Assembly (NCBI GenBank): GCA_013289095.1
Contig: JABDAO010000007.1
Span: 1 to 57,867 of the forward strand
Source: Bacteroidota bacterium
GTDB lineage: Bacteria; Bacteroidota; Bacteroidia; Palsa-965
Reading direction: 5' to 3'
Length of the DNA: 57,867 bases
A program made the position numbers and the translations under genes. The notes beneath the pieces are model-generated. The model searched no databases. It was not told the DNA's origin and saw only the letters and a list, made by a program, of their open reading frames with translations. Of the stretch, positions 1-56,297 are shown in pieces (the first letter of the stretch is position 1; each line of letters starts with the position of its first letter).

Positions 1-273
1 TTCATAAATACATGCTTCTTCTTCGTCAATAGAGCCTCCTCCTTCATAAATACATGCTTCTTCTTCGTCAATAGAGCCTCCTCTTTCATAAATACATGCT
101 TCTTCTTCGTCAATAGAGCCTCCTCTTTCATAAATACATGCTTCTTCTTCGTCAATACATCCTTCTCCTTCATAAATACATGGTTCGCCTCCGTCAATAC
201 CGCTTTCCTTTCGTAAATACGCCTTTCTCCTTTATACATGCAGCTTTCACTGTGTAAATACACGCGGTTGCCA
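1..273. repeat. Degenerate tandem array, 21-bp unit in a 42-bp dimer register (clear copies 1-42, 43-84, 85-126, 127-168, decaying 169-273)
   Basis: Repeated ttcataaatacatgcttcttc/ttcgtcaatagagcctcctcc. The two halves match at 14 of 21 positions, so the 42-mer is a diverged dimer of a 21-mer. Array is cut by the window edge. Confidence 0.93.
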
Positions 274-382
274 TGCAGTAGCACCCGACACGTCGACTGC
301 AAGAACTGAGTTTCCACAAAATCCGTTCGTAATTAGGGTTCACTCAAATTAACCAATCGTCACACAATCATTCACTTACATT

Positions 383-534
383 TGTTTATCCCGCATTATT
401 CATCAGGAATTGGCCTTCCCACTCAAATGGCTGACAGCACATGCACCCAGCGGGATAACCGGGATGCACACACACAAAAGGCTTAACGCACGTTGCATTA
501 GCCTGTTACACGGCAAATGCAAAATCCCGGGTTA
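383..534 (-). repeat. Dispersed hairpin element family 1, copy A
   Basis: Near-identical to 27363-27512 (tgtttatcccg..attattcat.aggaattggccttcccactcaaatggct..cagcacatgcacccagcgggataaccggg...aaatcccgg) and diverged reverse-complement homologue of 21111-21233 and 32834-32955. Confidence 0.85.
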
Positions 535-846
535 TTGTCAAACTGGCACAAGCAGAAGTATTGATTTAGCTTAAAAGGCTTGCAGCCAGTATGTTTCAGA
601 CAGTCATTCTGTTCAATGATTTTTTCAATACGGAGTGTATCGAACTAAGTAACCCCGCGCTAAAGCGCTACCGTGTACCCACAAGTTTGAGCCTTATATT
701 TGTCTCAAAAACAGATGTATCGAACGAACTATATCAATGCTTTTTGGGGATTTGCGCTTAGAAAAGAGAGGCGAACAGTTAATAAGCCGATTGTTTACCA
801 GTTTTACGCAATGACAAGGTCAGTGAAAAGCAGACTCTTTTGCACA

Positions 847-1197
847 GGTTCCGTGGTGCCTTACACAGGTTCCTTGGAGCCTTTCACAGGTTCCGTGGTG
901 CCTTGCAAAGGTTCTGAGGTACCTTACACAGGTTCCGTGGTGCCTTGCAAAGGTTCTGAGGTGCCTTACACAGGTTCCGTGGTGCCTTGCAAAGGTTCTG
1001 AGGTGCCATTCAAAGGTTCCGTGGTGCCTTACACAGGTTCCTGGGTGCCTTTCAAAGGTTCCGTGGTGCCTTACACAGGTTCCGTGGTGCCTTGCAAAGG
1101 TTCTGAGGTGCCTTACACAGGTTCCGTGGTGCCTTTCACAGGTTCCGTGGTGCCTTACACAGGTTCCGTTGTGCCTTTCAAAGGTTCCGTGGTGCCT
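847..1197 (+). repeat. Tandem 21-bp array, about 17 units; stop-free heptad GS(V/E)VP(Y/C/F)(T/K)
   Basis: ggttccgtggtgccttacaca / ggttctgaggtgccttgcaaa repeated in phase; translation GSVVPYT GSLEPFT GSVVPCK GSEVPYT and so on. Lies within ORF 700-1200. Confidence 0.95.
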
Positions 1198-1250
1198 TGA
1201 TAAGGAAGCGCTGCAAAAACATCGGGGAAATGAAGGGCATCTCTAATGGG

Positions 1251-1334
1251 TGTATTGCGAAGGATAAAGGATATACTGCAAAGAATAAAGGGTGTGTTGC
1301 AAAGGATAAAGACCCGGTTACAGGTGATAAAGGT
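1251..1334 (+). repeat. Short tandem 21-bp array, about 4 units, different consensus from the preceding array
   Basis: tgtattgcgaaggataaagga / tatactgcaaagaataaaggg / tgtgttgcaaaggataaagac / ccggttacaggtgataaaggt. Confidence 0.8.
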
Positions 1335-1543
1335 TATAAAATCAAAACTCAGCGCTTAAAACCTTGCATCCTGTCCATACGCGATTGCCCTGTGACCCAG
1401 TCTTGTCTTTGATCGTACTCTTTAAATTTTATTGTTTTCTGCAACACTATCATAAAAATCCTTGTACTTCCGTTAATTTGATTGAATAATGGACATTTCT
1501 AATAACCTCGATCTATTGACTTCTCTCTGCCTCTCCCCCAAGG

Positions 1544-1701
1544 GCTACCGTGTACCCACAGGTTTTCTGATAGCTGTTAATCCATCGTGATTTATAACGA
1601 AAGGCGTATCCTGGTTCCACCCAACCCCAGACATCGCGCTGCTCCGGAGCGGGATGCCTGGGGTTTTGATGATCATAAAAAAGATGTGGGTACACGGTAG
1701 C
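1544..1701. mobile_element. MITE-like palindromic element with 17-bp perfect terminal inverted repeats
   Basis: gctaccgtgtacccaca (1544-1560) and tgtgggtacacggtagc (1685-1701); internal stem aaccccagacatc/gatgcctggggtt. Confidence 0.7.
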
Positions 1702-1937
1702 GCTAAAGCGCGGGGTTACTAATTGATTCAGGTAACGTACCTTTTAATAGGTTGATAAATACACGCAAGGAAGCCTGGCGTGTTCTGCCTTTTTGAGTGA
1801 ACCCTAAATAAAGGCAAGACATGGAAATACAAACACAACCGGGGCTCCTCATGGGCGCACTCGTTTAAGGACGAAAGCTTTCAGGCTCCAGTGAGCCACG
1901 GGGCGTGGACTAAAAATTGTTCGAAGTGCGATGGAGA

Positions 1938-1967
1938 TAAAAAAAACCCTCCAGATGGAGGGTTTTG
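1938..1967 (-). terminator. Rho-independent-type terminator for the DUF6089-like gene
   Basis: aaaaaaccctccagatggagggtttt stem-loop with T-run on the minus strand just after the stop at 1975. Confidence 0.75.
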
Positions 1968-1974
1968 AAAGGTC

Positions 1975-2943
1975 TTAGAATTTAGCCCTGAATTTTCGTT
2001 TCTTGTATTTTTTGCCTTTGAAAATACTTCCGTAATGCGATTTGTAGTAAGTGCTTTTGCCTCGCAGTGCATAGCTGAAATTAATTGTTGTGGTGAGATA
2101 ATCATCATTTTTATCGTTGTAGCCACGTACATTCGCATGGCCTCCTGGCTGATTTGTCAAACCCTCTCCGGTCTTAAGCCATCCATAATTATTTAAAATG
2201 GCAGGGTTTGACGTGACCTCACCAGTTCGATCAGCGAATGCTGCTGATTTTCCATTCGCTCCGCCTGGGAGTGTAGCTGGGTCTACATAATTTCCATGTA
2301 CATCATCAATCTCATCGGTAAAGGTGGTTCGGTAGGTGATGTCCCACCCAATGCGGTATCGCTTCTCGATAGTGAAATAAAATCCGATCTGGGCTGGAAT
2401 CGCAAATCCATATAAACTATAGCCATGACCTTCGGTCTGCAGGGGCTCCAGTGCGACAGGTGTATTGCCATAACCCGGAGGCTCGGTAAGTGACAGTGGG
2501 TTGAAATGGAAACCTGCAACACCTATTCCGGCATAAGCGCGAAAATCATTGCGGTAACGGTAGGTATGACCGAGGTCATTGATCTCGAAAAAGTAATATT
2601 GAGCCAGTAAATTTATTTCTTGAATATTGTCCTGAAAGTCAAGATTACGATCCCGCCGGTTTTCGTATGGAGAATCTTTGTCGCTTCCTTGAACATGTGT
2701 GTATGCGAAACCGCCTTGAATGGAGAGACTTGGAAACATTTTGTACCGAACAAACAGTCCGTCACCCGTACGGGTTTCGCCCATTTTCATGTCGGCGATG
2801 TAGTGACGGGCAGGACCTGCACCTCCTCCTATATCACCAATATAATTGCCTGCACCAACCTGTACTCCAACATCCCATTTGTATTGGGAGAAGGAAATCA
2901 TTGGCATGGATAAAGCGGATATGATGAGTAGAACTCTTCTCAT
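1975..2943 (-). CDS. DUF6089 family / PorG-like outer-membrane beta-barrel protein
   Basis: MRRVLLIISALSMPMISFSQYKWDVGVQVGAGNYIGDIGG..., signal peptide and GxxNYxGDxGG start; ORF to 2961, start chosen at MRRVLL. Confidence 0.8.
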   Translation of the reverse strand: MRRVLLIISALSMPMISFSQYKWDVGVQVGAGNYIGDIGGGAGPARHYIADMKMGETRTGDGLFVRYKMFPSLSIQGGFAYTHVQGSDKDSPYENRRDRNLDFQDNIQEINLLAQYYFFEINDLGHTYRYRNDFRAYAGIGVAGFHFNPLSLTEPPGYGNTPVALEPLQTEGHGYSLYGFAIPAQIGFYFTIEKRYRIGWDITYRTTFTDEIDDVHGNYVDPATLPGGANGKSAAFADRTGEVTSNPAILNNYGWLKTGEGLTNQPGGHANVRGYNDKNDDYLTTTINFSYALRGKSTYYKSHYGSIFKGKKYKKRKFRAKF

Positions 2944-3166
2944 TGTACAAATGTACACCATTGTTGAACAATTCCTACTGTTTGTCGAAAAATATTTTGG
3001 CGTATTGCTCTAACCCTACCGATGTCCGATTTATGAACATTGCTCGCCACTCAGTTTTGAGTTCGGAGCAAGCAACACTGGCCTGACAGTTTCAGTAAAG
3101 AGAAATGAAAATCAGCTACTTTTACCTTTGATTTTTCCGGCTCCCTTATCTTTTCCGGGCCGGAAG

Positions 3167-4141
3167 ATGTCCACTCAAATTTATCCAAGGATGAAAAATC
3201 GGATTTCAGCGCTATTTAAAATTCAGTACCCTATTGTTCAGGCCGGTATGATCTGGTGCAGCGGCTGGAAACTGGCCTCGGCCGTAAGTAATGCAGGAGG
3301 TTTGGGTTTGATTGGTTCGGGTTCAATGTACCCTGAAATACTACGCGAACATATTCAAAAATGCAAGGCAGCAACCTCCAGGCCTTTTGGGGTTAATTTG
3401 CCCTTGCTCTATCCCGATATTGACAAACATGTTCAGGTAATAGTCGAAGAAGGAGTAAGCATTGTCTTTACTTCCGCCGGCAATCCCAAAACCTGGACAG
3501 ATATCTTAAAGTCGAACGGCATAACAGTTGTTCATGTTGTCTCAAACTTGAAATTTGCCCGTAAAGCGGAAGATGCAGGTGCAGATGCCATTGTAGCCGA
3601 AGGATTTGAAGCCGGTGGTCATAACGGCCGGGAGGAAACAACTACACTCTGTCTGGTGCCCTTGATCAGGGAGGCCATTCATATACCCCTGCTGGCCGCA
3701 GGCGGTATCGCAACCGGAAAAGGGATGTTGGCTGTTATGGCTTTAGGGGCAGAGGGTGTGCAAATAGGGTCTCGCTTTGTGGCTTCAGAAGAATCATCAG
3801 CACACCTGAATTTTAAGGATCGTGTGGTTCATGCTGCCGAGGGTGAAACACAGCTGATGCTCAAACAGCTCACTCCGGTGCGTCTGCTCCGAAATGATTT
3901 TTTTACTGAGGTAGCGCTTGCCGAGCAGCGTGGCGCTTCGCGCGAGGAATTGACGACCCTGCTCGGACGGGGGCGTGCTAAAGCCGGGATGTTTGAAGGG
4001 AAACTGGATGAAGGTGAATTGGAAATAGGGCAGGTAAGCGCTGTAATCCGTGAAATCTTACCTGCCGCATCCATTGTGCAGGAAATAATCACCGAATATG
4101 AAGAGGCCCGGTGCAATTTGCTTGCCTTGAAACTGGAATGA
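3167..4141 (+). CDS. NAD(P)H-dependent nitronate monooxygenase / FabK-like flavin oxidoreductase
   Basis: YPIVQAGMIWCSGWKLASAVSNAGGLGLIGSG, EGFEAGGHNG, AAGGIATGKGMLAVMALGAEGVQIGSRF motifs. Confidence 0.9.
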   Translation: MSTQIYPRMKNRISALFKIQYPIVQAGMIWCSGWKLASAVSNAGGLGLIGSGSMYPEILREHIQKCKAATSRPFGVNLPLLYPDIDKHVQVIVEEGVSIVFTSAGNPKTWTDILKSNGITVVHVVSNLKFARKAEDAGADAIVAEGFEAGGHNGREETTTLCLVPLIREAIHIPLLAAGGIATGKGMLAVMALGAEGVQIGSRFVASEESSAHLNFKDRVVHAAEGETQLMLKQLTPVRLLRNDFFTEVALAEQRGASREELTTLLGRGRAKAGMFEGKLDEGELEIGQVSAVIREILPAASIVQEIITEYEEARCNLLALKLE

Positions 4142-4375
4142 CTGCGTAAGAGCGATGGGCCTGTCCTTCCGATCATATACTTACGTTATGATTTACCGTG
4201 AAGCGTTCAGTCTATCCATACTTTTTGTTCACTTCAACGCTTCGAATTCGGGCCTGAATTCATGAATGAAGAGTACAGGATGGTTTCCTGCCGGCTCATG
4301 AAAAGCATCGGGACATCTAAAGCTATTACTTTTCTGCAATAAAATCGTCTGAAAATGCTCCTCCCTCTTACACGC

Positions 4376-4585
4376 TTTTGCCTTGAACCTTCCTCAAGCG
4401 ACTTCCTGATTTTATCATTCAGCGCTTTGAACTTAGAGTGCTTCTACTGGACTACACAATTCTGCTCTGGAATCTCCCATAACTATTCCGCGATCAGATT
4501 CTTCCGCTATGGGATCTCCCATAGCGGTTCCCCGAGTACATGCTTTCGCTCTGGGATCTCTCCTAGCGATTATCCGAAACCATTC
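4376..4585. repeat. Degenerate tandem array, 42-bp unit (clear at 4460-4501, 4502-4543, 4544-4585, diverged upstream)
   Basis: ttctgctctggaatctcccat... / ttccgctatgggatctcccat... / tttcgctctgggatctctcct... at exact 42-bp spacing. Confidence 0.85.
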
Positions 4586-4953
4586 TTTCTAAATCCTGCC
4601 TTCAAAGGTACAAGGGCCTGAATATGTCTGTCTTCCCTGAAATCATGGAATGCCACTATCCGAGCCTGGGCTGCCTTTTTACACGCATGACCAGCCAGGC
4701 TCCGCTCAGTCTTGGATAATCCTGCATTATTCTGTTGGAGATGCCAACGCTCTGAAAAGGCCACCAACTTTCAGGAGCAGCGGGATAACCCAAATCCTTC
4801 ACACAGATGGACAATGCGCTGAACAGTAGCGAACTACGTTTCTACTGTTCATTTTGGGATAATTTGTAATTTCACCGCGCAAGCGGAACGAACGGTTTCA
4901 CGGGTTGCTTGCTGTTCAATGCTGGAATTCATGTATTCATACTTATTCTTCTC

Positions 4954-6195
4954 ATGATAAAATTTAACAGATTTACGTTAGATAACGGACTACGGGTGAT
5001 CGTACATTCCGACACTTCCACACAACTGGCTTGTTTAAACATACTGTATGATGTTGGGGCCCGGGATGAAGACCCTGCCCAGACAGGTTTCGCCCACCTC
5101 TTCGAACACTTAATGTTTGGCGGATCCGTAAATATACCTAGTTACGATGAGCCTCTTCAACGGGTGGGGGGCGAAAACAATGCGTTTACTTCTAATGATA
5201 TCACAAACTATTACCTGACATTACCGGTCAACAACATCGAGACCGGTTTTTGGCTAGAGAGCGATCGAATGCTGAGCCTGGCATTTTCGGAGAAAAGCCT
5301 GGAAGTTCAACGCAGTGTGGTGATCGAGGAATTCAAGCAACGTTACCTCAATCAGCCTTACGGTGATGTGTGGCTGCTGCTCCGTCCGCTGGCTTATAAA
5401 GTACACCCCTATCTTTGGTGTACGATAGGCAAGGAAATAAAACACATCGAAGATGCCCGTATGGATGATGTGAAAGCCTTCTTTAAAAAACACTATACCC
5501 CTTCAAATGCGATCCTGGTTGTATCGGGTAATGTTCAATTTGGTGAGATAAAGCAATTGACTGAAAAATGGTTTGGTACCATCCCGACAACGCCCAAACC
5601 TGTTCGCAACCTGCCCCCCGAACCTGTACAAACCGAATACAGGAACCTTAGCGTCCAGCGCGATGTGCCCAGTGATGCGCTGTACATGGCCTTTCACATG
5701 TGTTCGAGAACGGAAAAGGGGTATCATGTCATGGATCTGATATCCGATCTGCTCTCTCGTGGTAATTCTGCCCGTTTGTACAATTCGCTTGTAAAAAGCA
5801 ATCAGTTGTTTTCCGAAATCAGCGCCTACCTCATGGGCGACCTTGATAAAGGGATGTTCGTGATTTCTGGGAAATTGCTCGAAGGAATTTCCTTTCAGCA
5901 AGCCGAAGACGCAGTATTCCATGAATTGGAAAAGCTAAAAACAGATTTGATTTCAGATATGGAGCTTCAGAAAGTAAAGAACAAGATGGAATCGACAATT
6001 GTTTTTGGAGAAACGAGTGTGCTCGACAAATCTATGACCCTGGCACTTTTCGAACTTCTGGGTGATGCCGAAGGCATTAACCTGGAGGTAGGAAAGTACA
6101 TGGCGGTTACCAGGGCCGAGATTCAGGAAGCCGCCCAGACCGTATTACGAAAAACAAATTGCTCTTCACTCTTTTATCAAGCGCTGAAACACTGA
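4954..6195 (+). CDS. M16 family zinc peptidase
   Basis: HLFEHLMFGGS (HxxEH) and N-terminal FTLDNGLRVIVHSD. Confidence 0.95.
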   Translation: MIKFNRFTLDNGLRVIVHSDTSTQLACLNILYDVGARDEDPAQTGFAHLFEHLMFGGSVNIPSYDEPLQRVGGENNAFTSNDITNYYLTLPVNNIETGFWLESDRMLSLAFSEKSLEVQRSVVIEEFKQRYLNQPYGDVWLLLRPLAYKVHPYLWCTIGKEIKHIEDARMDDVKAFFKKHYTPSNAILVVSGNVQFGEIKQLTEKWFGTIPTTPKPVRNLPPEPVQTEYRNLSVQRDVPSDALYMAFHMCSRTEKGYHVMDLISDLLSRGNSARLYNSLVKSNQLFSEISAYLMGDLDKGMFVISGKLLEGISFQQAEDAVFHELEKLKTDLISDMELQKVKNKMESTIVFGETSVLDKSMTLALFELLGDAEGINLEVGKYMAVTRAEIQEAAQTVLRKTNCSSLFYQALKH

Positions 6196-6288
6196 GCCTC
6201 TTCACAAGAACATTTCATCGAAACGTATTCTCGGTCCGACAGCTACGGAGATACATATACTGAACAGCTTTTTAATAACCCGACACAG

Positions 6289-7590
6289 ATGAACACACTT
6301 CAACAGCCAGACCGCAAACATGCCCCTGCATTCGGAACACTTGATCAAGTAGCTATCGCCGAGGCCAAAACTATCAAACTTGGAAATGGGATTCCGCTCT
6401 TTAAAATCGATGCTGGCACGCAGGACCTGGTAAAGATTGAGTTCATTTTTCCTGGCGCAGGGGCAACCAGCCAGCCCGGTCCGCTTGTTTCTGTCGGAAC
6501 GAATGATATGTTGGATGAAGGTACCGGGCGTTTTTCATCCTCCGAGCTGGCCGAGCGCATTGATTACTTTGGCGCATTTTTGCAAATGGAATCGACCCTT
6601 GATTTCTCTTCCGCTTGTTTATTCTGTTTAAATAAACATTTGCGTGATACCTTGCCCCTGTTGGAGGAAATGATAAAAAGCGCCAGTTTCCCGTCACATG
6701 AATTTGATACCTATCTTCAGAATAAAAAACAAAAATTTCTGACCGATGAGGCAAAGGTTTCGACCATTGCACGGAAAAAATTTACCCAACTGCTATTTGG
6801 TGATGTGCACCCGTATGGTCATTATCTGAGCCAGGGCGATTTCGAAACGCTTGACAGGCAGCAACTCCTCCATTTTCATCAACGTGCTTACCGGGCCGAC
6901 AGTTGTCATGTGGTTGTTTCAGGAAAAATGGATCCCCAGCTGGATCTCCTGATCGACACCCATTTTGGGGATAAAACTTGGTCCTCCATGAACACGCCGT
7001 CAGCAAAACAACCGGCACTGATCCAATCAACGCTGGTCAAAAAACATTTTGTTGAAAAGAAAGATGCTGTTCAAAGCGCGATCCGTATCGGAAGACTCCT
7101 GTTCAATAAAATGGATCCTGATTTTATGGGTATGCAGGTACTGAATACCATTTTTGGCGGATATTTCGGTTCCAGACTGATGTCGAATATTCGGGAAGAC
7201 AAGGGATACACGTATGGGATTGGTTCCGGCATCGTTTCACTGAAACAGGCCGGATATTTTTTCATTTCAACCGAAGTAGGAGTAAGCGTTTGTAAAGATG
7301 CCTTAACCGAAATTTATTTCGAAATGGCACGTCTGCGAAACGAACTCATTCCCGAAGAAGAATTGATCCTGGTGAAGAATTATTTGCTGGGCACGTTTCT
7401 CCGAAGTGCAGACGGGCCTTTTTCGCTGGCCGATAAATTTAAAAACATTTATGATTACGGTCTGGACTATACTTATTATCAACGGTATGTACAGGTCGTT
7501 AAAAATATAACATCTATTGATCTTCAGGCACTTGCTAATAAATATCTCCAGGAAGGACAGATGACGGAGTTGGTCGTGGGTCTTCAATAA
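6289..7590 (+). CDS. M16 family peptidase-like protein, second non-catalytic-type subunit
   Basis: LGNGIPLFKIDAGTQDLVKIEFIFPGAG, no HxxEH seen; VLNTIFGGYFGSRLMSNIREDKGYTYGIGSG; adjacent to first M16 gene. Confidence 0.92.
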   Translation: MNTLQQPDRKHAPAFGTLDQVAIAEAKTIKLGNGIPLFKIDAGTQDLVKIEFIFPGAGATSQPGPLVSVGTNDMLDEGTGRFSSSELAERIDYFGAFLQMESTLDFSSACLFCLNKHLRDTLPLLEEMIKSASFPSHEFDTYLQNKKQKFLTDEAKVSTIARKKFTQLLFGDVHPYGHYLSQGDFETLDRQQLLHFHQRAYRADSCHVVVSGKMDPQLDLLIDTHFGDKTWSSMNTPSAKQPALIQSTLVKKHFVEKKDAVQSAIRIGRLLFNKMDPDFMGMQVLNTIFGGYFGSRLMSNIREDKGYTYGIGSGIVSLKQAGYFFISTEVGVSVCKDALTEIYFEMARLRNELIPEEELILVKNYLLGTFLRSADGPFSLADKFKNIYDYGLDYTYYQRYVQVVKNITSIDLQALANKYLQEGQMTELVVGLQ

Positions 7591-18307: not shown

Positions 18308-20446
18308 TTATTTTGCTTGTTCTTCCGCTTCTTTCGGTGCAGGCAGCAATACCTTGCGGCTAAGCTTGAATTTACCTGTCTTTGGGTCAACACCGATGAG
18401 TTTTACCTTCACCTGATCGCCTTCCTTCATAATGCCTTCGAGTGAATCTAACCGGCGGTGTTCTACTTCGGAGATATGCAGCAGGCCGTCTTTGCCGGGC
18501 ATAAACTCGATGAACGCGCCGAAGTTGAGGATTGATTTTACTTTTCCTTCGTATACTTCGCCCACTTCGGGTACCGCAACGATGTTACGGATGCGGCGCA
18601 GGGCAGCTTCAACGGCTTCCTGGCTGTCGCCTGCAACGTCGATATAGCCCATTTCGTTCTTTTCTTCGATAACGATGGTGGTGCCTGTCTCACGTTGCAT
18701 TTCCTGGATGATCTTTCCTCCAGGCCCGATGATGGCCCCGATGAATTCTTTTGGAATGGTGATCTGAACCAGGCGGGGTGCATGTGGCTTGTAATCAGTC
18801 CTTGGTTTATCCAGGGTCTTGTTGATTTCGTTGAGGATATGTAAACGGCCGGCCTTGGCTTGTTCGAGGGCCTGTATCATTACTTCGTAAGGAAGACCAT
18901 CTACTTTCAGGTCCATCTGACAAGCGGTGATACCGTCTTTTGTTCCACATACTTTAAAGTCCATATCGCCCAGGTGATCTTCATCGCCGAGGATATCGCT
19001 CAGTACGGCGTATTTGCCGTTTGCGGTAATAAGACCCATTGCAATGCCGGTAACCGGTTTTGCGATGTTTACGCCTGCATCCATCAGGGCAAGTGTACCT
19101 GCACATACGGTAGCCATAGAAGAGGAACCGTTCGACTCGAGGATATCTGACACCACACGTACAGTGTATGCACAATCTTTTGGAAATACTTGTTTGAGGG
19201 CACGCAGGGCCAGGTTTCCGTGACCAACTTCACGACGTCCTGTTCCGCGGTTTGGACGGGCCTCACCGGTAGAAAAAGCAGGGAAGTTGTAGTGGAGGTA
19301 GAAACGCTGTTCGCCGGAAATTACGGCTCCATCAATTTTTAACTGATCGAGTTTGGTTCCGAGCGTAACCGAGGTAAGCGATTGTGTTTCACCGCGTGTG
19401 AAGATAGCCGAGCCGTGTGCACAGGGCAGGTAATCTACTTCGCTCCAGATCGGGCGGATGTCGGCAGTTCCACGGCCATCCAGACGTTTCTTTTCGTCGA
19501 GCACCAGGTTACGTACGGCATGGTATTCCACATCGTGGTAATACTTTTTGATCAGACCTGTTTTGGCTGCACGTTCTTCGTCCGAAAAAGTAGCCAGGTA
19601 ATCGGCAAGAACTTTGCCGAAAGCTTCGCTGCGCGCATGTTTGTCCTTGTCGCCTGTTTTGGCCACAGCATAAGCTTTCTCGTAGGTGTCTTTGTACACC
19701 TTTTCTTTCAGCTCGGCATCGTTGGTTTCGTGGTTATAGGTACGTTTCACAGTGGGCGCTCCGGCCTGTTTGGTGAACTCGTTGATGTTTTTGATCTGAT
19801 TACGAATGGCTTCGTGTGCAAACTTGATGGCAGCAACCATGTCTTGTTCAGAAATTTCTTTCATCTCGCCTTCCACCATGGTGATGTCTTTTTCGCTGGC
19901 AGCAACCATCATATCGAGGTCTGAATTTGCCATTTCCGAAAAATTGGGGTTGATCACGAATTTGCCATCCACCCGCCCGACACGTACTTCGGAAATAGGG
20001 CCGTTGAATGGAATGTCGGAAAGTGCAATAGCCGTTGCGGCAGCCAGACAGGCGTAGGCATCGGGCTGAATATTTTTATCAGCAGAGATGAGGGTGATCA
20101 TCACCTGTACATCGGCATGAAAATCGTCGGGGAACAGCGGGCGCAATGCACGGTCTACCAAACGACTGGTAAGGATTTCATTTTCGGACAAACGGGCTTC
20201 ACGTTTGAAAAAGCCGCCCGGGAATTTTCCGGCAGCAGCAAATTTTTCCTGGTAATCAACAGAAAGCGGTAAAAAATCAACCCCTTCTTTGGCGTCCTTG
20301 TTGGCCACCACGGTGGCAAGCAACATGGTGTTTCCGACTTTCACGACAACCGAGCCATTGGCTTGTTTGGCGAGCTTTCCTGTTTCCAGTGTAACCATTC
20401 TCCCGTCTCCGAGATCGAATGTTTTGGTGATTCCTGTTTGTGACAT
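18308..20446 (-). CDS. pnp: Polyribonucleotide nucleotidyltransferase
   Basis: RNase PH domains, KH ([24 protein letters not shown]) and S1 ([33 protein letters not shown]). Confidence 0.98.
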
Positions 20447-20651
20447 CTTTTTTTTGTTTTGTTTTCTTTTGTTTTCTTGTTCCTCTTTTGTTGTTGCCTC
20501 GTTTTTCCTGTTTTCTGATTTGTGAATCGGTTCAGCTGGGAAGTCAAGGTAGCCGGATGAATGTGTTTCAACCGTTTAAATCAACGAAAATCGGGGAGCA
20601 GCTGGTCTTGATTCGGTATGTAAAAGCGTGGTATTGAAAGGCTATGTAACA

Positions 20652-24609: not shown

Positions 24610-24648
24610 GAACAGCCCGTCAAATTAGCGCGAACGGGAAATCCGTTG

Positions 24649-24795
24649 TATTTCAATTGAAAACAACCTTTTTCAATTGAAATACAAGGTACTTCAATTG
24701 AAAAACAACGTATTGCAACTGAAACAGGACAGATTGCAACTGAAGCACGACGTATTGCAACTGAAATACGATCTGCTGCATCTGCAATCAGACGA
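24649..24795. repeat. Tandem 21-bp array, 7 units
   Basis: ttttcaattgaaatacaaggt / acttcaattgaaaaacaacgt / attgcaactgaaacaggacag / attgcaactgaagcacgacgt / attgcaactgaaatacgatct / gctgcatctgcaatcagacga; first interval is 20 bp. Confidence 0.93.
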
Positions 24796-27362: not shown

Positions 27363-27512
27363 TGTTTATCCCGAATTATTCATTAGGAATTGGCCTTCCC
27401 ACTCAAATGGCTGGCAGCACATGCACCCAGCGGGATAACCGGGCTGCCCACACACAAGGCTTAACGCACTTTGCATTAGCCTGTTACACGGCTAATGCAA
27501 AATCCCGGTTTA
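27363..27512 (-). repeat. Dispersed hairpin element family 1, copy B
   Basis: Near-identical to 383-534; perfect stem ttgcattagcc(gtgtaaca)ggctaatgcaa on the minus strand. Confidence 0.88.
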
Positions 27513-27612
27513 TACCAGTTTTTAGCCACTTTAAGGATTTTTTTATCCGCGAAAGTGGCTTAGAACTGGTTATACCGGGGGGCTTGCCCTTATTCTCTTG
27601 TTCTTTCGGTAT
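27513..27612 (+). repeat. Hairpin element family 2, copy 1, immediately upstream of a T9SS-protein gene
   Basis: taccagtttttagccacttt (27513-27532) / aaagtggcttagaactggtta (27552-27572); second pair tataccg / cggtata; matched by 45611-45713. Confidence 0.75.
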
Positions 27613-32300: not shown

Positions 32301-32762
32301 ATGTATGCTGGCAAGGAGATGATGTATGCAGAAGTAAGAATGTGTAATGTGGAAGATGATTTGTGTACGATGGAACATGGTTTAGGCAACAAAACACCTG
32401 ACATGGTCGGAAAGTCAACTAAAACCGGTACGATTTCAATTGAAATCGTTGCAATGGAAAATGAAATAGAACAGATTTTATTTGACATCAGTACAAGAGA
32501 ATAAGACAGCGGTACCATGTCAGCTTACATCGTTATCATGGAAAATGAAACAGGTATGATAGAAAGAGAAACAGGCATCATGTCAATTGAAATGTGTACA
32601 ACGGAATAGGAAACAGGTATCATTTCATTTTACATCGGTGCGATAGAAAGTGAAATGGAAACGATTGCAATTGACATCGGTACAAAAGAAAATGAAATCG
32701 ATACGATGTCAAATGAAATGTGTGCGATGGAAAGTGAAACAGGTGAGATGGAAATTGCAATG
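32301..32762. repeat. Tandem 21-bp array, 22 units in phase over 462 bp
   Basis: Units such as ggtacgatttcaattgaaatc, gttgcaatggaaaatgaaata, ggtatgatagaaagagaaaca, ggtgcgatagaaagtgaaatg, tgtgcgatggaaagtgaaaca; consensus near ggtacgatggaaaatgaaatc. Confidence 0.95.
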
Positions 32763-32833
32763 TGATAAAATGGATTAAAAGAGACAAGAAAATGACCCGT
32801 GCCATGATCCTAAGCTTGAGATTTGCCGGCGAT

Positions 32834-32955
32834 AAAACCCAGCTTGTGCATTAGATGGGGTGTGCCCTAATGTACCGTGTGTTAGGATTTGGACTTTCCC
32901 GATAGTCATCGGGATGGGTTATCCTGCGGGTTCGTCGTGCTGCTGGCCTTTTGAG
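32834..32955 (+). repeat. Dispersed hairpin element family 1, copy D
   Basis: aacccagcttgtgcattagatggggtgtgccctaatgtaccgtgtgttaggattt...cccgatagtcatcgggatgggttatcctgcggg matches 21111-21233. Confidence 0.8.
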
Positions 32956-33518
32956 CGCGAATGCCTGCTTCGAATGCATCCTGCGGGTTTATAGTACAGA
33001 CTGCGTTCATTTACTTGGTATAGGGAGGATCAGGTAAAAACAAAGCCCCGGGTGTAGCATCCCGGGGCTATAGTGTACATGGCAAAAAAAGTGCAAAGAA
33101 AAAGCCCTTTTCCTCTGTTGCTTTTTTCGTGCTACAAAAATGCATCTTTTTTGGCTGAGCGTTGATTATGGAATTGTTATTTTCACCTTCAGGCCCTCTC
33201 ACTGCCTGATTTGCAATGGCTTTGTTTTTTAACAGGGTGCGGCAGGGAAGCCTGAACCGATCTTTCTGAAAACAGGGCCTGTCCTTTTTGTCATTCACCC
33301 AAACGCATCGTTTTTTGGCCCCGGTTTGATTAAAGTCATGAAAAACAGGCGTTATTTTAACTTTTCGTGAAAAAACAGGGAAGATGTGGTATCTATTTTT
33401 TAATTTGGACATAAATCTCTACTTTTGAAAGTTCAGAAACAGATCCCCTTTCGCTATACTAATTCGTATTCAATAAATTTGAAGGGAATGAGTATGCGTA
33501 GGAGCTGTTTATCCATTT

Positions 33519-45270: not shown

Positions 45271-45293
45271 TTTTCGTATCGTTGTATTGTTAA

Positions 45294-46775: not shown

Positions 46776-46841
46776 GTACAGTACCCCCCTCGGGTACATT
46801 TTAAAGGAATGAAAAAATAAATAAAACTAAACTCAATACTT

Positions 46842-47444: not shown

Positions 47445-47455
47445 ACCACTTCCGC

Positions 47456-47899: not shown

Positions 47900-47908
47900 A
47901 TCAACATC

Positions 47909-48700
47909 ATGATCCGATCCCGGCATTTTATACTCATTCTGCTTTCCTTTTTTGCTTCAATTGGCGCTATGCAGGCCCAGGATGGAATACCCGACAGGCC
48001 CTCTCCGCCTCATCTGGTAAACATCCTTTCTAAAAATTCGACAATCCTTTCTCCTGCAGAGGTCACTGCGTTGGAAGCCAGATTGGTTGAATTCGGGAAC
48101 GCGACCTCCAACCAGATCTGTATCCTGATTGTGGATGATCTCAAAGGCATGGAGCCGAATGATTATGCCACGCGTGTCATTCGTACTTGGAAGGTGGGTC
48201 AGGAGAAACTGAATAATGGCATTGTAATCCTGATTAAACCGAAGACGGGTTCAGAAAATGGGCAGGCTTACATCACTACCGGGTATGGCCTGGAAGGAGC
48301 TATTCCTGACATCACCTGTAAAAAGATTATGGAGCATGAAATGATCCCGCATTTCAGACAAGGGCAGTATGCCGACGGGATCAACGCTTCGGTAGATGTT
48401 TTGATGTCGCTTGCAAAAGGCGAATACAACTCCGATGCGTATGCCAAGCGTGTAGGCAGGGCAAGCGGAGCGAGGAGCCCCAATGCGGTTGCCATTATTG
48501 TAATAATCATCCTGGGTATATTTTTCTTATTCATCCGTGGCGGTGGGATGGGCGGAGGAAGTGGCGGTGGCGGTTTCTGGATAGGTGGAGGAGGATTTGG
48601 CGGCGGAGGTGGCGGTGGTTTTGGAGGCGGTGGAGGCGGCGGTTTCGGCGGTTTTGGAGGCGGAAGCGGTGGAGGCGGTGGCGCCGGAGGCAGCTGGTAA
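47909..48700 (+). CDS. TPM domain-containing membrane protein with Gly-rich C-terminus
   Basis: ILSPAEVTALEARLVEFGNATSNQICILIVDDLKGMEPNDYATRVIRTWKVGQEKLNNGIVILI...YGLEGAIPD; GGGGFGGGGGGGFGGFGGGSGGGGGAGGSW. Confidence 0.95.
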   Translation: MIRSRHFILILLSFFASIGAMQAQDGIPDRPSPPHLVNILSKNSTILSPAEVTALEARLVEFGNATSNQICILIVDDLKGMEPNDYATRVIRTWKVGQEKLNNGIVILIKPKTGSENGQAYITTGYGLEGAIPDITCKKIMEHEMIPHFRQGQYADGINASVDVLMSLAKGEYNSDAYAKRVGRASGARSPNAVAIIVIIILGIFFLFIRGGGMGGGSGGGGFWIGGGGFGGGGGGGFGGGGGGGFGGFGGGSGGGGGAGGSW

Positions 48701-48757
48701 ATGAAATACATATTCTTTCTTCAGGAAATGAAGACTGACAAACAGGGTTTTTAGTTT

Positions 48758-49507: not shown

Positions 49508-49644
49508 CAAAGTGCGCTGCTCATTGCTGACGGCCCGCTTCTGCCTTGGTTTCTATTGAATTTTTAATGAAGCTCAAAAGAAGGAAGCCCCTGTCTTCAC
49601 CTGGTTTCTTTGTTGTATCTTTGATTCAATCCATTCAAAGCGGC

Positions 49645-51192
49645 ATGATAAGAAAGCGATCCAGCTACTGGCAACTAAGGGTATTGGTTTTGCTCGGTTT
49701 TCTGAGCGTGAACGCCCTGAAAGCCCAGTGGGTTACGATTCCCGATGCTCACTTTGTTTCCTGTCTTCAAGCGCTGGTGCCGGCTGCCATGAACGGAAAC
49801 CTGATGGATACCACCCATCCGGCTGTGACCACAACCACACACCGCATGCAGGTCAGTAAAAAAGCCATAGCTGATCTTACCGGCATTCAATATTTTCACG
49901 CCCTAACTTATTTAGATTGCAGCAATGATTCATTGGCAATGCTTCAATCGCTCCCCAACTCCATAGACAGCCTTGTCTGCGATACCAATAAGCTGGGCTC
50001 CATTTCTGCGCTTCCTGCTTCTTTGCTTTATCTTACCTGCCGGTCGAATATACTCGTTACACTTCCTGTTTTTCCTGTCAACACCCGTACGGTCGATTGC
50101 CGTTACAACCACCTGGATACGCTCAATTTGCTTCCAGCCGCATTACATACGCTCATTTGTTCCCAGAACCGTATTAACAATTTGCCAGCGCTTCCCACTG
50201 GCTTGCAGGTCTTGCGTTGTGACTGGAATAACCTCAATACGCTTCCTGCCTTGCCAAACACGTTGACATACCTTTCGTGTTATGATAATAATATCCTAAG
50301 CCTTCCTGTTTTCCCGGCCTCACTAACCTTTATAGATTGTGCTGATAATTTTATTACCACCATGCCTGCATTGCCGGCTTCGCTCCTGTATTTATTCTGC
50401 CAGAATGATGCTTTTGGCAGTCTGCCCCCGCTGCCATCGGGGCTCGTGATTTTGTACTGCAATTTAAACCCGCTTTCTGCAGGCTTGCCGCAACTGCCGG
50501 CTTCGCTTACCTTTCTGAATTGTTCGAACGATGTATTGAAGATCCTGCCCCCGCTGCCGCCTTTGCTAGACACCCTGCACTGCGAGGGGAACCGACACCT
50601 GACAACTCTACCGGCATTGCCCTCAAAATTGAGATACCTCAACTGTTCGAACGATAGCTTGACCCTGATCCCGCCCATACCGGGTTCTCTTCTTGCTTTG
50701 AATTGTCAGACCGATTTTCTGACCAGTTTGCCACAGCTGCCGGATTCTATCCAGGCGATCCTGTGTGGCAGCAACCAGATACACTGTTTCCCGGTTTTTC
50801 CTCCTTCGATCACTACACTTACTATTGATCCGAATCCATACGGTTGTGTATCCAATCATATCCCTGCCATGGGGGCCGATACGGTGACACATCCGCTTTG
50901 CGGCCCGGTTAACCAGTATAATTGCCCGATGGCGAGTAATATAGGCATCAGGCAATATTCGGAAAACACCGAAGGGCTTCATGTTTTTCCAAATCCCAGT
51001 ACAGGGTCTTTTTCGATCAGTTGTGAGCAGGTTGCAGCGTGGTTACAGGTTACCGATGTACTCGGAAGGATAGTTTTTTGGATAAAGCCTCAGGGCGAAA
51101 CACAGCAATTGCAACTCAAAACTCCTGGCGTGTATTTTATTCGGGTTAGTATGCCTTCTGGTATCCAAACTGGAAAAGCAGTGGTGAAGTAA
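49645..51192 (+). CDS. Secreted leucine-rich repeat protein with T9SS type A sorting domain
   Basis: About 15 LPxLPxxLxxLxCxxNxL repeats; C-terminal GLHVFPNPSTGSFSIS...YFIRVSMPSGIQTGKAVVK. Confidence 0.94.
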   Translation: MIRKRSSYWQLRVLVLLGFLSVNALKAQWVTIPDAHFVSCLQALVPAAMNGNLMDTTHPAVTTTTHRMQVSKKAIADLTGIQYFHALTYLDCSNDSLAMLQSLPNSIDSLVCDTNKLGSISALPASLLYLTCRSNILVTLPVFPVNTRTVDCRYNHLDTLNLLPAALHTLICSQNRINNLPALPTGLQVLRCDWNNLNTLPALPNTLTYLSCYDNNILSLPVFPASLTFIDCADNFITTMPALPASLLYLFCQNDAFGSLPPLPSGLVILYCNLNPLSAGLPQLPASLTFLNCSNDVLKILPPLPPLLDTLHCEGNRHLTTLPALPSKLRYLNCSNDSLTLIPPIPGSLLALNCQTDFLTSLPQLPDSIQAILCGSNQIHCFPVFPPSITTLTIDPNPYGCVSNHIPAMGADTVTHPLCGPVNQYNCPMASNIGIRQYSENTEGLHVFPNPSTGSFSISCEQVAAWLQVTDVLGRIVFWIKPQGETQQLQLKTPGVYFIRVSMPSGIQTGKAVVK

Positions 51193-51317
51193 TTTCCCCT
51201 CTTGATGTGACTAACACGTTGTCTTATCCTTTAGGCAGTTATTATTAACTTTGTTTTCAACCTCTTCTGACTGAAGGAAGCGACTGTGATGCTTTTACCG
51301 TTATTTTCACAACCGGC

Positions 51318-51827
51318 ATGAAAAAAGGAATAAAATACCTAAGCATCATCCTGCCCTTGACCGGACTGTTGAGCTGCAATCCTCCACCGACAGAAATAGC
51401 CAAAGACCTGCATGAGCGTGTTGTTTATTTAGAAAAAGAACTTGCCAATACATACAAACCGGGTCTGGGCGAATTCATGAGTTCGATCCAGGTACACCAT
51501 GCAAAACTGTGGTTTGCAGGGGTCAATAAAAACTGGAAGCTGGCTGATTTTGAAATCCAGGAAATTAAAGAATCACTCGACGATATCCAGAAATTTTGTC
51601 AGGATAGGGAGGAAGTAAAATCAATCCCTATGCTTACACCCGCAATTGATTCGGTGATGAATACCATCAAACACCAAAACCTGGTCTCGTTTAAAAGCGG
51701 CTTTACATTTCTTACCGGTACCTGTAACAACTGCCACCAAAGCACCAACCACGAATTTAATGTGATACAGGTTCCCGAAATACCTCCGTTCAGTAACCAA
51801 CGTTTTTCGGTTGACATGGCGCACTAA
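51318..51827 (+). CDS. Putative lipoprotein with one CxxCH haem-binding-like motif
   Basis: Lipobox LTGLLSC; C-terminal TGTCNNCHQSTNHEFNVIQVP. Confidence 0.75.
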   Translation: MKKGIKYLSIILPLTGLLSCNPPPTEIAKDLHERVVYLEKELANTYKPGLGEFMSSIQVHHAKLWFAGVNKNWKLADFEIQEIKESLDDIQKFCQDREEVKSIPMLTPAIDSVMNTIKHQNLVSFKSGFTFLTGTCNNCHQSTNHEFNVIQVPEIPPFSNQRFSVDMAH

Positions 51828-52116
51828 ACATTTCTTTGTCTGTGATGTGAATAATCTCTGTGCCTCTGTGTGTTAAATACAACGAAAATCAAAGTCAAAT
51901 GGGCGCTGTAGAATGGGTTTGTATAAGAAAGTCCTGTATTTCAGAAGAAAAAATAAGTTTTTTTTGTTTCTGTTGAATTTTAAATAATTTAGCTCTATCA
52001 TCATCTTTCAGCACAGACAACATTGCATACAGGAGTACCGGAAAACCTGCGAACAGAGTACGGGGCGTAATCCGAAAAGCCTGATGAGTAGGAGCTCAAA
52101 ACTAATCTATCACTTC

Positions 52117-52389
52117 ATGAAAAAGTATGTACTTATCATTGCCGCAGCTACATTCCTGACTGCAACCGCATTCATCGTCCCACAACAAAATGCCAAGAGC
52201 GAAGCCAGTGAGCATCCTCGCATCGAGAAAGCCATCAAAGAACTTGAAAGCGCAATTGATTATATGGAAAAAGCTCCCCACGATTTTGGCGGACACAAGG
52301 CCGATGCCCTGGCAGATTCAAAAAAAGCGGTGAAGTCGTTGAAGCTGGCCCTGGCCTACCGCGCAAAGGAGGATAACAAGAAGAAATAA
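52117..52389 (+). CDS. Small exported hypothetical protein
   Basis: MKKYVLIIAAATFLTATAFIVPQQNAKSEASEHPRIEKAIKELESAIDYMEKAPHDFGGHKADALADSKKAVKSLKLAL. Confidence 0.75.
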   Translation: MKKYVLIIAAATFLTATAFIVPQQNAKSEASEHPRIEKAIKELESAIDYMEKAPHDFGGHKADALADSKKAVKSLKLALAYRAKEDNKKK

Positions 52390-52410
52390 CAAGGGTTCGT
52401 TTTTATACGT

Positions 52411-52460
52411 GCTTTGAGGCAAAAGCCCCATTCCTTTTCCAGGTTTGGGGCTTTTGCCAT
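52411..52460 (+). terminator. Terminator hairpin
   Basis: ggcaaaagccccattccttttccaggtttggggcttttgcc followed by attattttt. Confidence 0.8.
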
Positions 52461-52468
52461 TATTTTTA

Positions 52469-52554
52469 GGGCATCTCTAATAACCCCATTTTCTTGACCT
52501 CTCCCGACCCTCTCCCAAGGAGAGAATGTTTGGAAGGGGTTATTAGAGATGCCT
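52469..52554. mobile_element. MITE-like element with 18-bp perfect terminal inverted repeats
   Basis: ggcatctctaataacccc ... ggggttattagagatgcc, inner ctctcccaaggagag; partial ends recur at about 1235, 1490 and 27301. Confidence 0.75.
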
Positions 52555-52693
52555 TTAGTGTATGTCCGGGCAGCAGGATGTCAGAACTGAGATGTGTTGG
52601 GCTTCCCCCTGATAAAAATCAGCAGCAGAGATACAGAATGCGTCTAGTTTTGTTCAGACAGGAAACAAAACCCACCTTATCCCTAACAGCGCT

Positions 52694-53539
52694 ATGACTA
52701 TCCTGGTTCCCACCGATTTTTCGACCTATGCAGACAATGCGTTGCAGTATGCGGCAGGGCTGGCAAAGCAAACCGGCGCTGAGATCCACGTAGTTCATGC
52801 ATTTGATCGTACACAGCTCATTCCCTTTACTTCCGGTATGTTTGTTCCGAAAGAAATACAAGCGGTGGAAGAGGGGGCCATGCAAGCGCTTAAAACAAGC
52901 GCTGCCGGCATACAACAGAGCAATATCCGCTGCGAACCGGTGAACCGAGAGGGCTCTGCTGTCTCCGTTATTCTTCATGTCATTGAGGAGATAAAACCCG
53001 ATCTGGTTGTGATGGGAACAAGAGGAGCCGCTGGGCTCAAAGAATTGATGCTTGGAAGCACTTCACAGAACGTGATGGAACGGGCAGGATGCCCTGTACT
53101 CGTTGTGCCGGAGAATGCTGTATATCGGCCGATCCGAAAAATAACGTATGCAACCGATTATCATGCCAGCGAATTACCCGTTCTCCCTCAGTTGAATGCG
53201 GTGGCCCGGCTGTTAGCCGCATCGGTAACAATCTTGCACGGATCGGAGAACGAAACCCGGCGTACACTCGAAGAAGCCACCATGAACGATTTCAGAAACA
53301 GGGTACTGAACCAACATCCAGACACCGCCTGGAATTTTACCCTGGCATTCGGGAAAAACATTCTGGAAATTCTTGAACACTATATCCACACAGAATCACC
53401 CGATCTGCTTTCCATTTCCATGCAACACAAAAGCCTGGCAGAGAAAATTACAGGTCAAAGCCTGACAAAAAAGATGCTCTTTCATGCCCATCTGCCAATT
53501 CTTGCCATTCATTCGTGCCAAGCTGTGCCCGTTAGCTGA
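52694..53539 (+). CDS. Universal stress protein, tandem Usp domains
   Basis: MTILVPTDFSTYADNALQYAAGLAKQTGAEIHVVHAF...LVVMGTRGAAGLKELMLGSTSQNVMERAGCPVLVVPE. Confidence 0.96.
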   Translation: MTILVPTDFSTYADNALQYAAGLAKQTGAEIHVVHAFDRTQLIPFTSGMFVPKEIQAVEEGAMQALKTSAAGIQQSNIRCEPVNREGSAVSVILHVIEEIKPDLVVMGTRGAAGLKELMLGSTSQNVMERAGCPVLVVPENAVYRPIRKITYATDYHASELPVLPQLNAVARLLAASVTILHGSENETRRTLEEATMNDFRNRVLNQHPDTAWNFTLAFGKNILEILEHYIHTESPDLLSISMQHKSLAEKITGQSLTKKMLFHAHLPILAIHSCQAVPVS

Positions 53540-53736
53540 TTTACGTTGTTCCTTGACTTGATAGATCTGGGGTATGACTTAAAAGCCATGAGCGTATCAT
53601 CAATTGACCGAAAGTAAGGTGTATTCATCACGCACGGATTACTGAGGATCGCCTGAGTTTTTTTTATTCGCTGATTCCCAAGTGTCTCAGCGGTAAATCC
53701 AAACCAAATTCACGATGCCGGTCAGCTATATAAAAA

Positions 53737-54390
53737 TCATTGTTTCAGGATACGGATGCTGCCCTTCGGCTTATTATCAATGCTAAGAATGGCATGATAA
53801 ATACCTGGGGCCAACCCGGCTATATTTAGTTCGGTATCGTTTTGTCCTTCGGTGAGTTGGACAGGCAATGACAAAACCGTTTTCCCAAGCCCGTCAACCA
53901 GGGTAATCACGCCATGCTCAGAAAGCGCCGTCTGTGTTCGAAGGGTGATCTGATCTTTTGCAGGGTTTGGAAACGAGGCAAACGAGAACCCCGGCGTCTT
54001 ATTTTCCTCTATACCCGATGTTGTTACAGTCTGAAAATATCCGGTCATCTTCGAATCATTCTTGCATTTAAAGGTATAAGTGCCAGGTATTTTTACCACA
54101 TAACTAAAAAAGTTATCGGCAAGGCTTAAATTATCTATTGGATGATCCCAGCTTACGGCCCCATGAGGGATGCTGACAGAGGTGGTCGTATGTTTTCCAT
54201 TTTTCCAGACCCATTTAATGGTATCGCCAACATGCACCTGGGTCAGGGTAGAGGGATTGAACTGCGGGCTTCCCACGGTGATACACCAAGTCTTTGCCTG
54301 GAGCATTCCGCCCCAGCTGATGAACAGGACAAGACTGAAAAGAAGGAATTTACAGGCGCTTGTTTTTTGTTTTGATGGTTGATTTTTCAT
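53737..54390 (-). CDS. Cupredoxin/plastocyanin-like secreted protein with T9SS type A sorting domain
   Basis: FNPSTLTQVHVGDTIKWVWKNGKHTTTSVSIPHGA...PGTYTFKCKNDSKMTGYFQTV; FSFASFPNPAKDQITLRT...PGIYHAILSIDNKPKGSIRILKQ. Confidence 0.92.
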   Translation of the reverse strand: MKNQPSKQKTSACKFLLFSLVLFISWGGMLQAKTWCITVGSPQFNPSTLTQVHVGDTIKWVWKNGKHTTTSVSIPHGAVSWDHPIDNLSLADNFFSYVVKIPGTYTFKCKNDSKMTGYFQTVTTSGIEENKTPGFSFASFPNPAKDQITLRTQTALSEHGVITLVDGLGKTVLSLPVQLTEGQNDTELNIAGLAPGIYHAILSIDNKPKGSIRILKQ

Positions 54391-54792
54391 GATTGAGGTT
54401 TTTTTGTTTGTTTAATCTATTTGGTGGATGATCTGCGAACCCCGGCTTTTCGGAAGAAGGCCCTGGAAAAGGTGTGATCAGTCTTTGTTTTTCGCTGCCC
54501 GGGTTGCCTTGCATCAGCTCCCATGGCTGATTAATAGTTTTACGTTTTGCAAAACGAAAGCAATAGTACTATGCAAAGTACGCTTATCGGAATATTTTCG
54601 GTGAAATGCGCGTTTTTGTCGGTAGATTGTGGTAGGGGGTAGTCAGCCAAAGCTGTCATCTGATTCATCCATACCCCCATTTTCAAAACCTGGAAGATTC
54701 TCCGTATTTTTCAACCCTGGTTCATGACAGGTTTGAAAAAGCAAGCCTTGACTGATTTCCTATTTAATATCTTCTGATCGATCAATTTTTCT

Positions 54793-55251
54793 ATGGAAAT
54801 AAAACTCACGCCTGTAGGCATAGTCAGGAATTCACGTAAAACACCCGTTGATGATCACTGGGGAACAGTGGTTTCAGAAATAGAATTGGCCCCGCATTTA
54901 CCAGATGAAGCATTCAGCCAGATAGCTGATTTCTCGCATCTGGAGATCATTTATTATTTTAACCAGGCAAACCCATCGGATATTGTTTTTTCGGGCAGGC
55001 CCCGCAGAAATCCTGCGTATCCGGTGGTGGGCATCTTTGGGCAGCGTAAGAAAGACCGGCCCAATAGCCTCGGTCTTTGTACTGTACAGCTGCTGAAACA
55101 GGAGAGAAGGATCATCACCGTATGCGGTCTGGATGCCATCGATCATACTCCCGTACTCGATATCAAACCTGTTTTTCGGGAGTTTCAACCCAAGGGTATC
55201 ATCCGGCAACCGGGCTGGGTAGAGGATTTGATGAAAGCATACTGGAAATAG
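54793..55251 (+). CDS. tRNA (N6-threonylcarbamoyladenosine(37)-N6)-methyltransferase TrmO-like (TsaA/YaeB family)
   Basis: LTPVGIVRNSRKTPVDDHWGTVVSEIELAPHLPDEAFSQIADFSHLEIIYYF...GIFGQRKKDRPNSLGLCTVQLLK...VCGLDAIDHTPVLDIKPVF. Confidence 0.93.
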   Translation: MEIKLTPVGIVRNSRKTPVDDHWGTVVSEIELAPHLPDEAFSQIADFSHLEIIYYFNQANPSDIVFSGRPRRNPAYPVVGIFGQRKKDRPNSLGLCTVQLLKQERRIITVCGLDAIDHTPVLDIKPVFREFQPKGIIRQPGWVEDLMKAYWK

Positions 55252-56066
55252 GAGGCCGAGGAGTTTTTTAGATGGATTTTCCCGATAGGAGTGGTGAAAA
55301 CACGTTTCTGTTTTCCTGTCATCGCGTGCCAGGCCGGCTATACGGTGTAGTTAAGCTACCCAATGCATCCGAAACATTGCAACTTGCATGGTCAAAAAAG
55401 GATTGCAGATCCTCTCGGCCTGTTTCGGATGCTTACGCCGCTAAAGTATGTGCCTGAAAACGGCACGCTGCTATTTACTTTGGCCGGACGCTGGCCTGCT
55501 GCCCATATCCAGCCCTGAATTCGTGACAGGGTGGAATCCGGGCACTGACCCGGTGCGTGTCTTGCACGAACAAACAGGGAGCGATCCTGTAACGGCGGCA
55601 AGGGTATACGTACCAGGCTCTGCATCTGCATACTTTCCGATTCTTGACCGGGCTGCCTTTAGCAAGTACAGGAGTAGTTGTATTTCATGGGTAGCTTTTG
55701 CGGGTATAGCAGACAAAAGATTTAGATATGTATCCTGAGAATTGAAGGGCTGAAATCAATCTCCCTGGTTTATAATCCGATGTTGTGGAGACACCGGCTT
55801 GTTGTTTTGCTTTCTTTTTTTTGTGATTTTTTATTATCGCTCCGTCTTTGGGTTTTGTGCCACTCTCCTTGCAGCACCCAAGGCTGGTATTGGATTCTTT
55901 TTTAGTTTCTAATGTAAAATTAATATGCAATTTTTCATTTGTCAATAGTTTCTCAAATAATATTTTAAAAACACGTATATATGCGTAGTGTTTTTGAGTG
56001 AATCTACGTGTTTCAGGATAGTGTGTCTGGCTGGTGCGGGTTGTTTTTTGAAATAAAATGATACTT

Positions 56067-56297
56067 GCAAAACCTTGATCACAAATTGATACGTTTACCA
56101 CAGAACTAGCACAAGGCGTCTTACAACTCCAACAGTTTAGCTTAGAACTTGATGCATTTACCTCAGAACTCGTTCAAGGTTCTTTAGAACTTGAGGTGTT
56201 TCTCTCAGAACTTGTTACGTTTACCCTGGCACTCTATATGTTTCCCTTAGAACCCGTTCAATATTATTTTCAATGCGAGGGGTTCACTTTGGGCTCC
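56067..56297. repeat. Tandem 21-bp array, about 10-11 units
   Basis: gatacgtttaccacagaacta / gcacaaggcgtcttacaactc / caacagtttagcttagaactt / gatgcatttacctcagaactc / gttcaaggttctttagaactt / gaggtgtttctctcagaactt ..., each exactly 21 bp from 56088; first unit less certain. Confidence 0.92.

Follow-up and report, generated by a model that had tools for sequence, protein, structure and literature searches.

The window, by which we mean the whole 57,867-nucleotide stretch of DNA analysed here, is one complete contig of the source MAG (2.95 Mb, 167 contigs, 62% complete). It encodes the type IX secretion domains CHU_C and Por_Secre_tail, which points to class Bacteroidia, and its PNPase is best matched by Bacteroidia MAGs at 69% identity. 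A tRNA search of the window found none, and an Rfam search at the gathering score gave no match, so that its arrays belong to no known RNA family. Arrays were detected with TRF, which favours regular arrays, together with lag identity and autocorrelation, with shuffles as the null. Genome-wide figures rest on 1.25 Mb of the source MAG, and three congeners from the same genus (G001, G002, G003) were compared. The features of interest in the window are as follows.

1..273, no strand assigned: 21/42-bp array of family CTCCTTCRTMAATACAYSCTT (TRF 1-220, 42 bp x 4.7, 94% match), degenerate at its right edge
668..1700, no strand assigned: MITE-like element of type C with a perfect TIR of at least 14 bp (CTACCGTGTACCCA) and a 10-bp target duplication (CGCTAAAGCG), holding two arrays
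843..1198, no strand assigned: 21-bp array, 17 copies of unit CACAGGTTCCGTGGTGCCTTA (TRF and lag identity), inside the type C element
1251..1334, no strand assigned: 21-bp array, unit GCAAAGGATAAAGGATATAYT (TRF 1256-1311 and lag identity), inside the type C element
4142..4908, no strand assigned: 767-bp intergenic stretch with an array and a REP-like element (synteny in L252 of G001 and L254 of G003)
4376..4591, no strand assigned: pure 42-bp array (TRF 4460-4589 and lag identity)
24648..24795, no strand assigned: 21/42-bp array with palindromic core TTTCAATTGAAA / TTGCAACTGAAA (TRF 24648-24788 and lag identity)
32301..32770, no strand assigned: degenerate 21-bp array (TRF 32634-32764, left part weak), with homologues in L063, L041, L034 and L030
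56067..56297, no strand assigned: weak, degenerate 21/42/63-bp array, unit approximately ACTTGATACGTTTACCTCAGA (TRF 56144-56222, score 51)

All seven arrays proved real by lag identity (shuffle p = 0.0005 each, which is the floor of the test). In each, self-identity peaks at lag 21, 42 or 63 and is at background at lags 20, 22, 41 and 43. The 4376-4585 array has a lag-21 identity of 0.31-0.34, near background, and thus no 21-bp sub-period; the 56-kb array, though weak, is significant, with identities of 0.47, 0.54 and 0.56 at lags 21, 42 and 63 versus 0.25. The initial annotation had described a spacing of 21 or 42 nt throughout, which holds at these seven arrays but not at 20446-20504 and 48583-48691, where tandem repeats have other periods. 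The former is a low-complexity tract; the latter call lies in a Gly-rich, FGGG-type coding tandem repeat (48583-48700) with periods of 24 and 33.

The exact 21-bp register of the arrays extends across the source MAG. Of the 135 tandem arrays that TRF detected in the 1.25 Mb, 91, covering 20.7 kb together, have a period of 21 or a multiple: 46 at 21, 28 at 42, 8 at 63, 5 at 84 and 4 at 126, versus 3 at 20 and 2 at 22. The intergenic autocorrelation that the initial annotation had proposed as a check gave sharp peaks at 21, 42, 63, 84, 105, 126 and 147 only. Intergenic 9-mers recurred 1035 times per 100 kb at lag 21 and 2032 times at lag 42, about 40-80 times the matches at flanking lags (29 and 26 at 20 and 22; 25 and 16 at 41 and 43), whereas coding DNA showed no comparable excess (11 at lag 21 versus 7-8 at 20 and 22). 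Long arrays thus showed no broad spread of periods. For arrays of at least 90 bp the best lag between 5 and 135 was always a multiple of 21, a result not independent of the TRF count because these arrays had been preselected by TRF as 21-multiples. Low-copy repeats likewise show a period excess at 21. Pure 42-bp arrays occur at window 4460-4571, L036 and L039, and the 42-, 63- and 84-bp blocks are higher-order repeats, as in satellites. No excess of 10/11-bp or 31/32-bp arrays was found, and the orientation of genes around arrays was unbiased (18 ++, 14 --, 14 -+, 11 +-).

This register is independent of sequence. Arrays of at least 140 bp fall into about 20 unit families that lack a common sequence, and searches found neither a motif common to the units nor a protein binding the arrays. 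Among 39 consensus units, congeners included, mean pairwise circular similarity was 10.00 of 21 versus 9.87 for shuffled units; with a mean so near chance, a single consensus for all families was rejected. There is a small tail of related pairs, 13 at 14/21 or more versus 2.1 expected. Palindromy is not the rule (mean z 0.42, with z>2 in only 5 of 52 arrays), and no 10.5-bp sub-periodicity was found overall, power at two cycles per unit being raised neither for AT/GC content nor for variability. The GGGAACATGTC/GGGAAGCTTA family differs from the other units in having an 11+10 half-unit.

The claim that the window's unit sequences are unrelated fails in two respects: the 24.6- and 32.3-kb arrays share a TTTCAATTGAAA-like core, and families recur. 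Family GGGAACATGTCGGGAAGCTTA occupies 13 loci, several others are found at further loci in the genome, and copies of the 1..273 family lie in L044, L026, L017, L053, L033 and L031. Nor are the seven loci all independent, as had been assumed, since dispersed copying produced many of the arrays and there are families related to one another.

Arrays with 21-multiple periods recur in the congeners, mostly with different sequences. G001, G002 and G003 contain 21-, 42-, 63- and 84-bp arrays amounting to 4.6 kb (a figure that may include coding repeats), 1.2 kb and 0.7 kb, respectively, and one family, ATCTATAGAYGGAG, is common to G003 and the source MAG. Long 21-bp arrays were absent from the same-family genomes sampled (~18-60 kb from each genome, 330 kb in total). 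One of these relatives, G009, has a different dominant period, with 14-nt arrays of up to 43 copies (TTCCAGATTCCAAG) at L200 11908-12504 and 9545-9741. Probes for a phage or plasmid origin gave no match among the viral contigs, plasmids and phages tried, and in the open-access literature we found no report of a 21-bp length lock.

Several arrays lie inside elements with TIRs and target duplications (TSDs), whose ends were exposed by aligning array copies. The type C element, with its two arrays, combines a 10-bp duplication and a TIR at a null rate of 0.2%; it is inserted into a REP palindrome (CCCCGCGCTAAAGCGCGGGG), the halves of which flank it at window 650-667 and 1701-1718. At L262 this palindrome is repeated next to a Y1_Tnp (RAYT-like) gene. 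Type A elements have the TIR GGGTCAAyGTCA and 8-bp duplications (L020, ATAATTTG; L064, ATTTTTTT; L011, GAGAATAG); type B elements have the TIR CAGGGCAATCGCG and 10-bp duplications (L030, L035 and, in L048, a 390-bp copy that has no array). TIRs and a TSD, with no transposase, mark window 668-1700, L011, L020, L064, L030 and L035 as MITEs, and L010, L012 and L027 have type A ends but no perfect TSD. At least nine arrays are thus housed in TIR/TSD elements, which are of three types and in some cases now degenerate; a TIR search around the remaining arrays detected none for most. The arrays behave as modules, since one family is found in elements of type A as well as type B, and L048 3901-4290 and L055 2507-2852 are members of these element types that lack long arrays. 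No PF13808 gene, as an ISAs1-type partner for the type B TIRs, scored above cut-off in the genus, and the single DDE_Tnp_1 gene of the source MAG has no matching TIRs.

The 4.4-kb array lies in an insert gained or lost in a lineage-specific manner: the gene pair 3128-4141 / 4909-6195 is 767 bp apart in the source MAG versus 40-45 bp in G001 and G003, so that the insert was either gained in the source lineage or lost in theirs. Inverted repeats hugging arrays are clear only at L034, L043 and L052; at L043 7209-7535 and L052 17610-17809, near-perfect 20-27-bp inverted repeats directly bound the arrays in a foldback-like arrangement.

Other repeats share this intergenic DNA. A second MITE family (TIR AGGGTTCACTCAAA, ~330 bp) has 28 ends in the 1.25 Mb, with sites at window 335 and 1805 and in L012, L013, L022, L044, L045, L050 and L066, some of them nested with arrays. 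REP-like bipartite hairpins of ~140 bp (TTTATCCCGC...GCGGGATAACC...GGGTTTAT) occur at window 383-535, 4717-4858, 27363-27513 and 32831-32990; they are often fused to arrays, and a single probe had as many as 45 matches in the 1.25 Mb. The arrays themselves are not REPs or BIMEs, which combine hairpin units with a RAYT gene; the genome's REP-like hairpins and Y1_Tnp genes are separate from them. Nor are they CRISPR arrays, their units being contiguous and without spacers. An Argonaute or RNA-guided origin was rejected, no Piwi gene being found in the 62% complete MAG.

Register-breaking indels are depleted in the arrays. Five homologous copies of the 32.3-kb array align over a 441-column core at 65-75% identity, and although they differ at 25-35% of sites, the sole gap is one exact 21-nt deletion in one copy. 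Gaps other than 21 nt numbered 0.0098 per substitution within arrays and 0.0104 between copies, versus 0.106 in those dispersed intergenic repeats of the source MAG that are not arrays; such indels are thus about tenfold rarer in arrays than in a baseline of hairpin-rich, REP-like repeats that may be indel-prone. TRF's own indel counts were 0.030 for 21-multiple arrays versus 0.113 for other arrays. This depletion supports selection on length or a mechanism tied to length, as the initial annotation had proposed, but part of the shared period is explained by copying, given the dispersed copies and their carriage in TIR/TSD elements. Selection seems to act against loss of the 21-bp register.

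We tentatively favour, at a probability of roughly 0.4, the reading that the arrays are satellite-like, mobile DNA in which selection on helical phase keeps the unit length at two B-DNA turns. Units would arise and then expand through duplication of 21-, 42-, 63- or 84-bp blocks, and the arrays would spread by copying, partly as cargo of non-autonomous TIR elements of types A, B and C. At 10.5 bp per turn, no integer length below 21 bp (2 x 10.5) completes whole turns, and strict phasing would permit multiples of 21 only, because periods of 10.5 and 31.5 bp would end on half a base pair. Each unit would then show the same helical face, and the array might serve as a phased scaffold, offering either aligned sites to a polymerising or clustering DNA-binding protein or coherently bent DNA; candidate readers would be a nucleoid protein, gyrase wrapping or a transposition-end factor. 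A one-base shift would break the phase and be lost. In a wedge model, a coherent bend was kept at period 21 for any unit and not at 20 or 22; predicted bend per unit showed no excess over shuffled units (z 0.17). As the units are enriched neither for bend nor for 10.5-bp periodicity, we infer that the period, not the unit, would be the selected property. The fuller version, a length-defined, sequence-independent scaffold in which exact two-turn spacing is selected, has either a DNA-binding protein that polymerises or DNA topology as its reader, and is spread by several mobile element families, strikes us as doubtful.

The main rival is neutral satellite turnover, to which we give somewhat less credence than to helical-phase selection. 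MITEs and recombination would have copied a small number of ancestral 21-bp arrays, or a single one, around the genome while slippage and conversion renewed the units until families could no longer be recognised, the period being inherited passively. The spread of families over many loci (13 for GGGAACATGTCGGGAAGCTTA), the nine or more arrays carried by TIR elements, degenerate copies included, the excess of related unit pairs, the satellite-like 42/63/84 blocks and the part of period sharing due to copying of related arrays all fit this account. However, mean similarity between families scarcely exceeds chance, passive inheritance does not predict a tenfold indel deficit, and the excess at 21 extends to low-copy repeats. 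Neutral inheritance of an ancestral period could also, together with a duplication bias, act alongside selection.

Such a bias acting by itself appears improbable. Slippage or template switching during repair would prefer duplications of about two turns, so that arrays would be born repeatedly at 21 bp and have no function. The preference for 21 among low-copy arrays agrees with this, as does a class-wide signal: intergenic DNA of 80 other Bacteroidota loci contained 10 clusters at lag 21 versus 0-4 at lags 19, 20, 22 and 23. That excess is weak and spread over 21-23, however, whereas in the source genus 20 and 22 are almost missing, and the register is kept in old, diverged arrays.

Two further accounts carry very little weight. 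Under the first, the 21 nt would be seven codons of heptad-repeat peptides; it draws on a stop-free frame in 48 of 52 arrays and on a home-made gene caller that marked one array family as coding. Stop-free frames are, however, at chance expectation, and the caller's label most likely arose because long array ORFs sat in its own training set. Variability was biased by codon position in only 2 of 52 arrays at p<0.05, showing no codon phase, and distinct substitutions gave no synonymous excess in any frame; four of the five 32.3-kb copies have forward-frame stops, with a dN/dS-like ratio of ~1. By frame, synonymous and stop tests the arrays are non-coding and do not lie in one protein family, and a coding heptad repeat was rejected. 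The other, equally remote account makes the arrays working parts of mobile elements, with repeated sites for a transposase or host factor phased for end synapsis, as their presence in three TIR types and a register conserved between element copies might suggest, but one family is carried by elements that differ in their TIRs, L048 3901-4290 and L055 2507-2852 lack long arrays, most arrays have no detected TIR and array spans far exceed known end sites.

Satellite-like non-coding arrays are typical of the source genus. Tandem repeats are usually judged by sequence; here, at dozens of loci in four species, length is fixed and sequence free. If selection on helical phase is the cause, the arrays would offer, in bacteria, a counterpart to the preferred lengths of eukaryotic satellites, as well as a route to a chromosome-scale protein or topological process that reads DNA phase; if duplication bias is, they would reveal a two-turn step in the birth of bacterial repeats.

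Bacterial minisatellites (VNTR loci) likewise lie between genes, with their repeats head to tail, and vary in steps of entire units. VNTR loci within one genome have many unit lengths, however, whereas here nearly all long arrays have one length and differ in sequence. Cyanobacterial STRR and LTRR and the REP/BIME repeats are also dispersed, non-coding and intergenic, but they are not 21-bp arrays: STRR are heptamers of few sequences, and REP/BIME units are hairpins. Plasmid iterons and the ends of Tn7 and Mu carry protein-binding repeats about two helical turns apart (~22-bp TnsB or MuA sites), a similar spacing; each such system uses one sequence in few copies, in contrast to the ~20 or more unrelated sequences found here. 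Eukaryotic MITEs and other TIR elements with internal tandem repeats resemble the array-bearing elements in their TIRs, target duplications, internal array and lack of transposase, but here several unrelated TIR types with the same internal period occur in one bacterium. The arrays also have the hallmarks of satellite DNA, namely tandem arrangement, locus-specific homogenisation and higher-order repeats, and may be regarded as its bacterial analogue. Eukaryotic satellite DNA has a preferred, nucleosome-sized monomer length (PMC8122249). As in our arrays, monomer length is preferred while sequence turns over, with higher-order repeats and concerted evolution; unlike eukaryotic satellites, the arrays are bacterial, short (0.1-0.7 kb) and dispersed over many loci, and their length corresponds to two turns of DNA rather than to a nucleosome.
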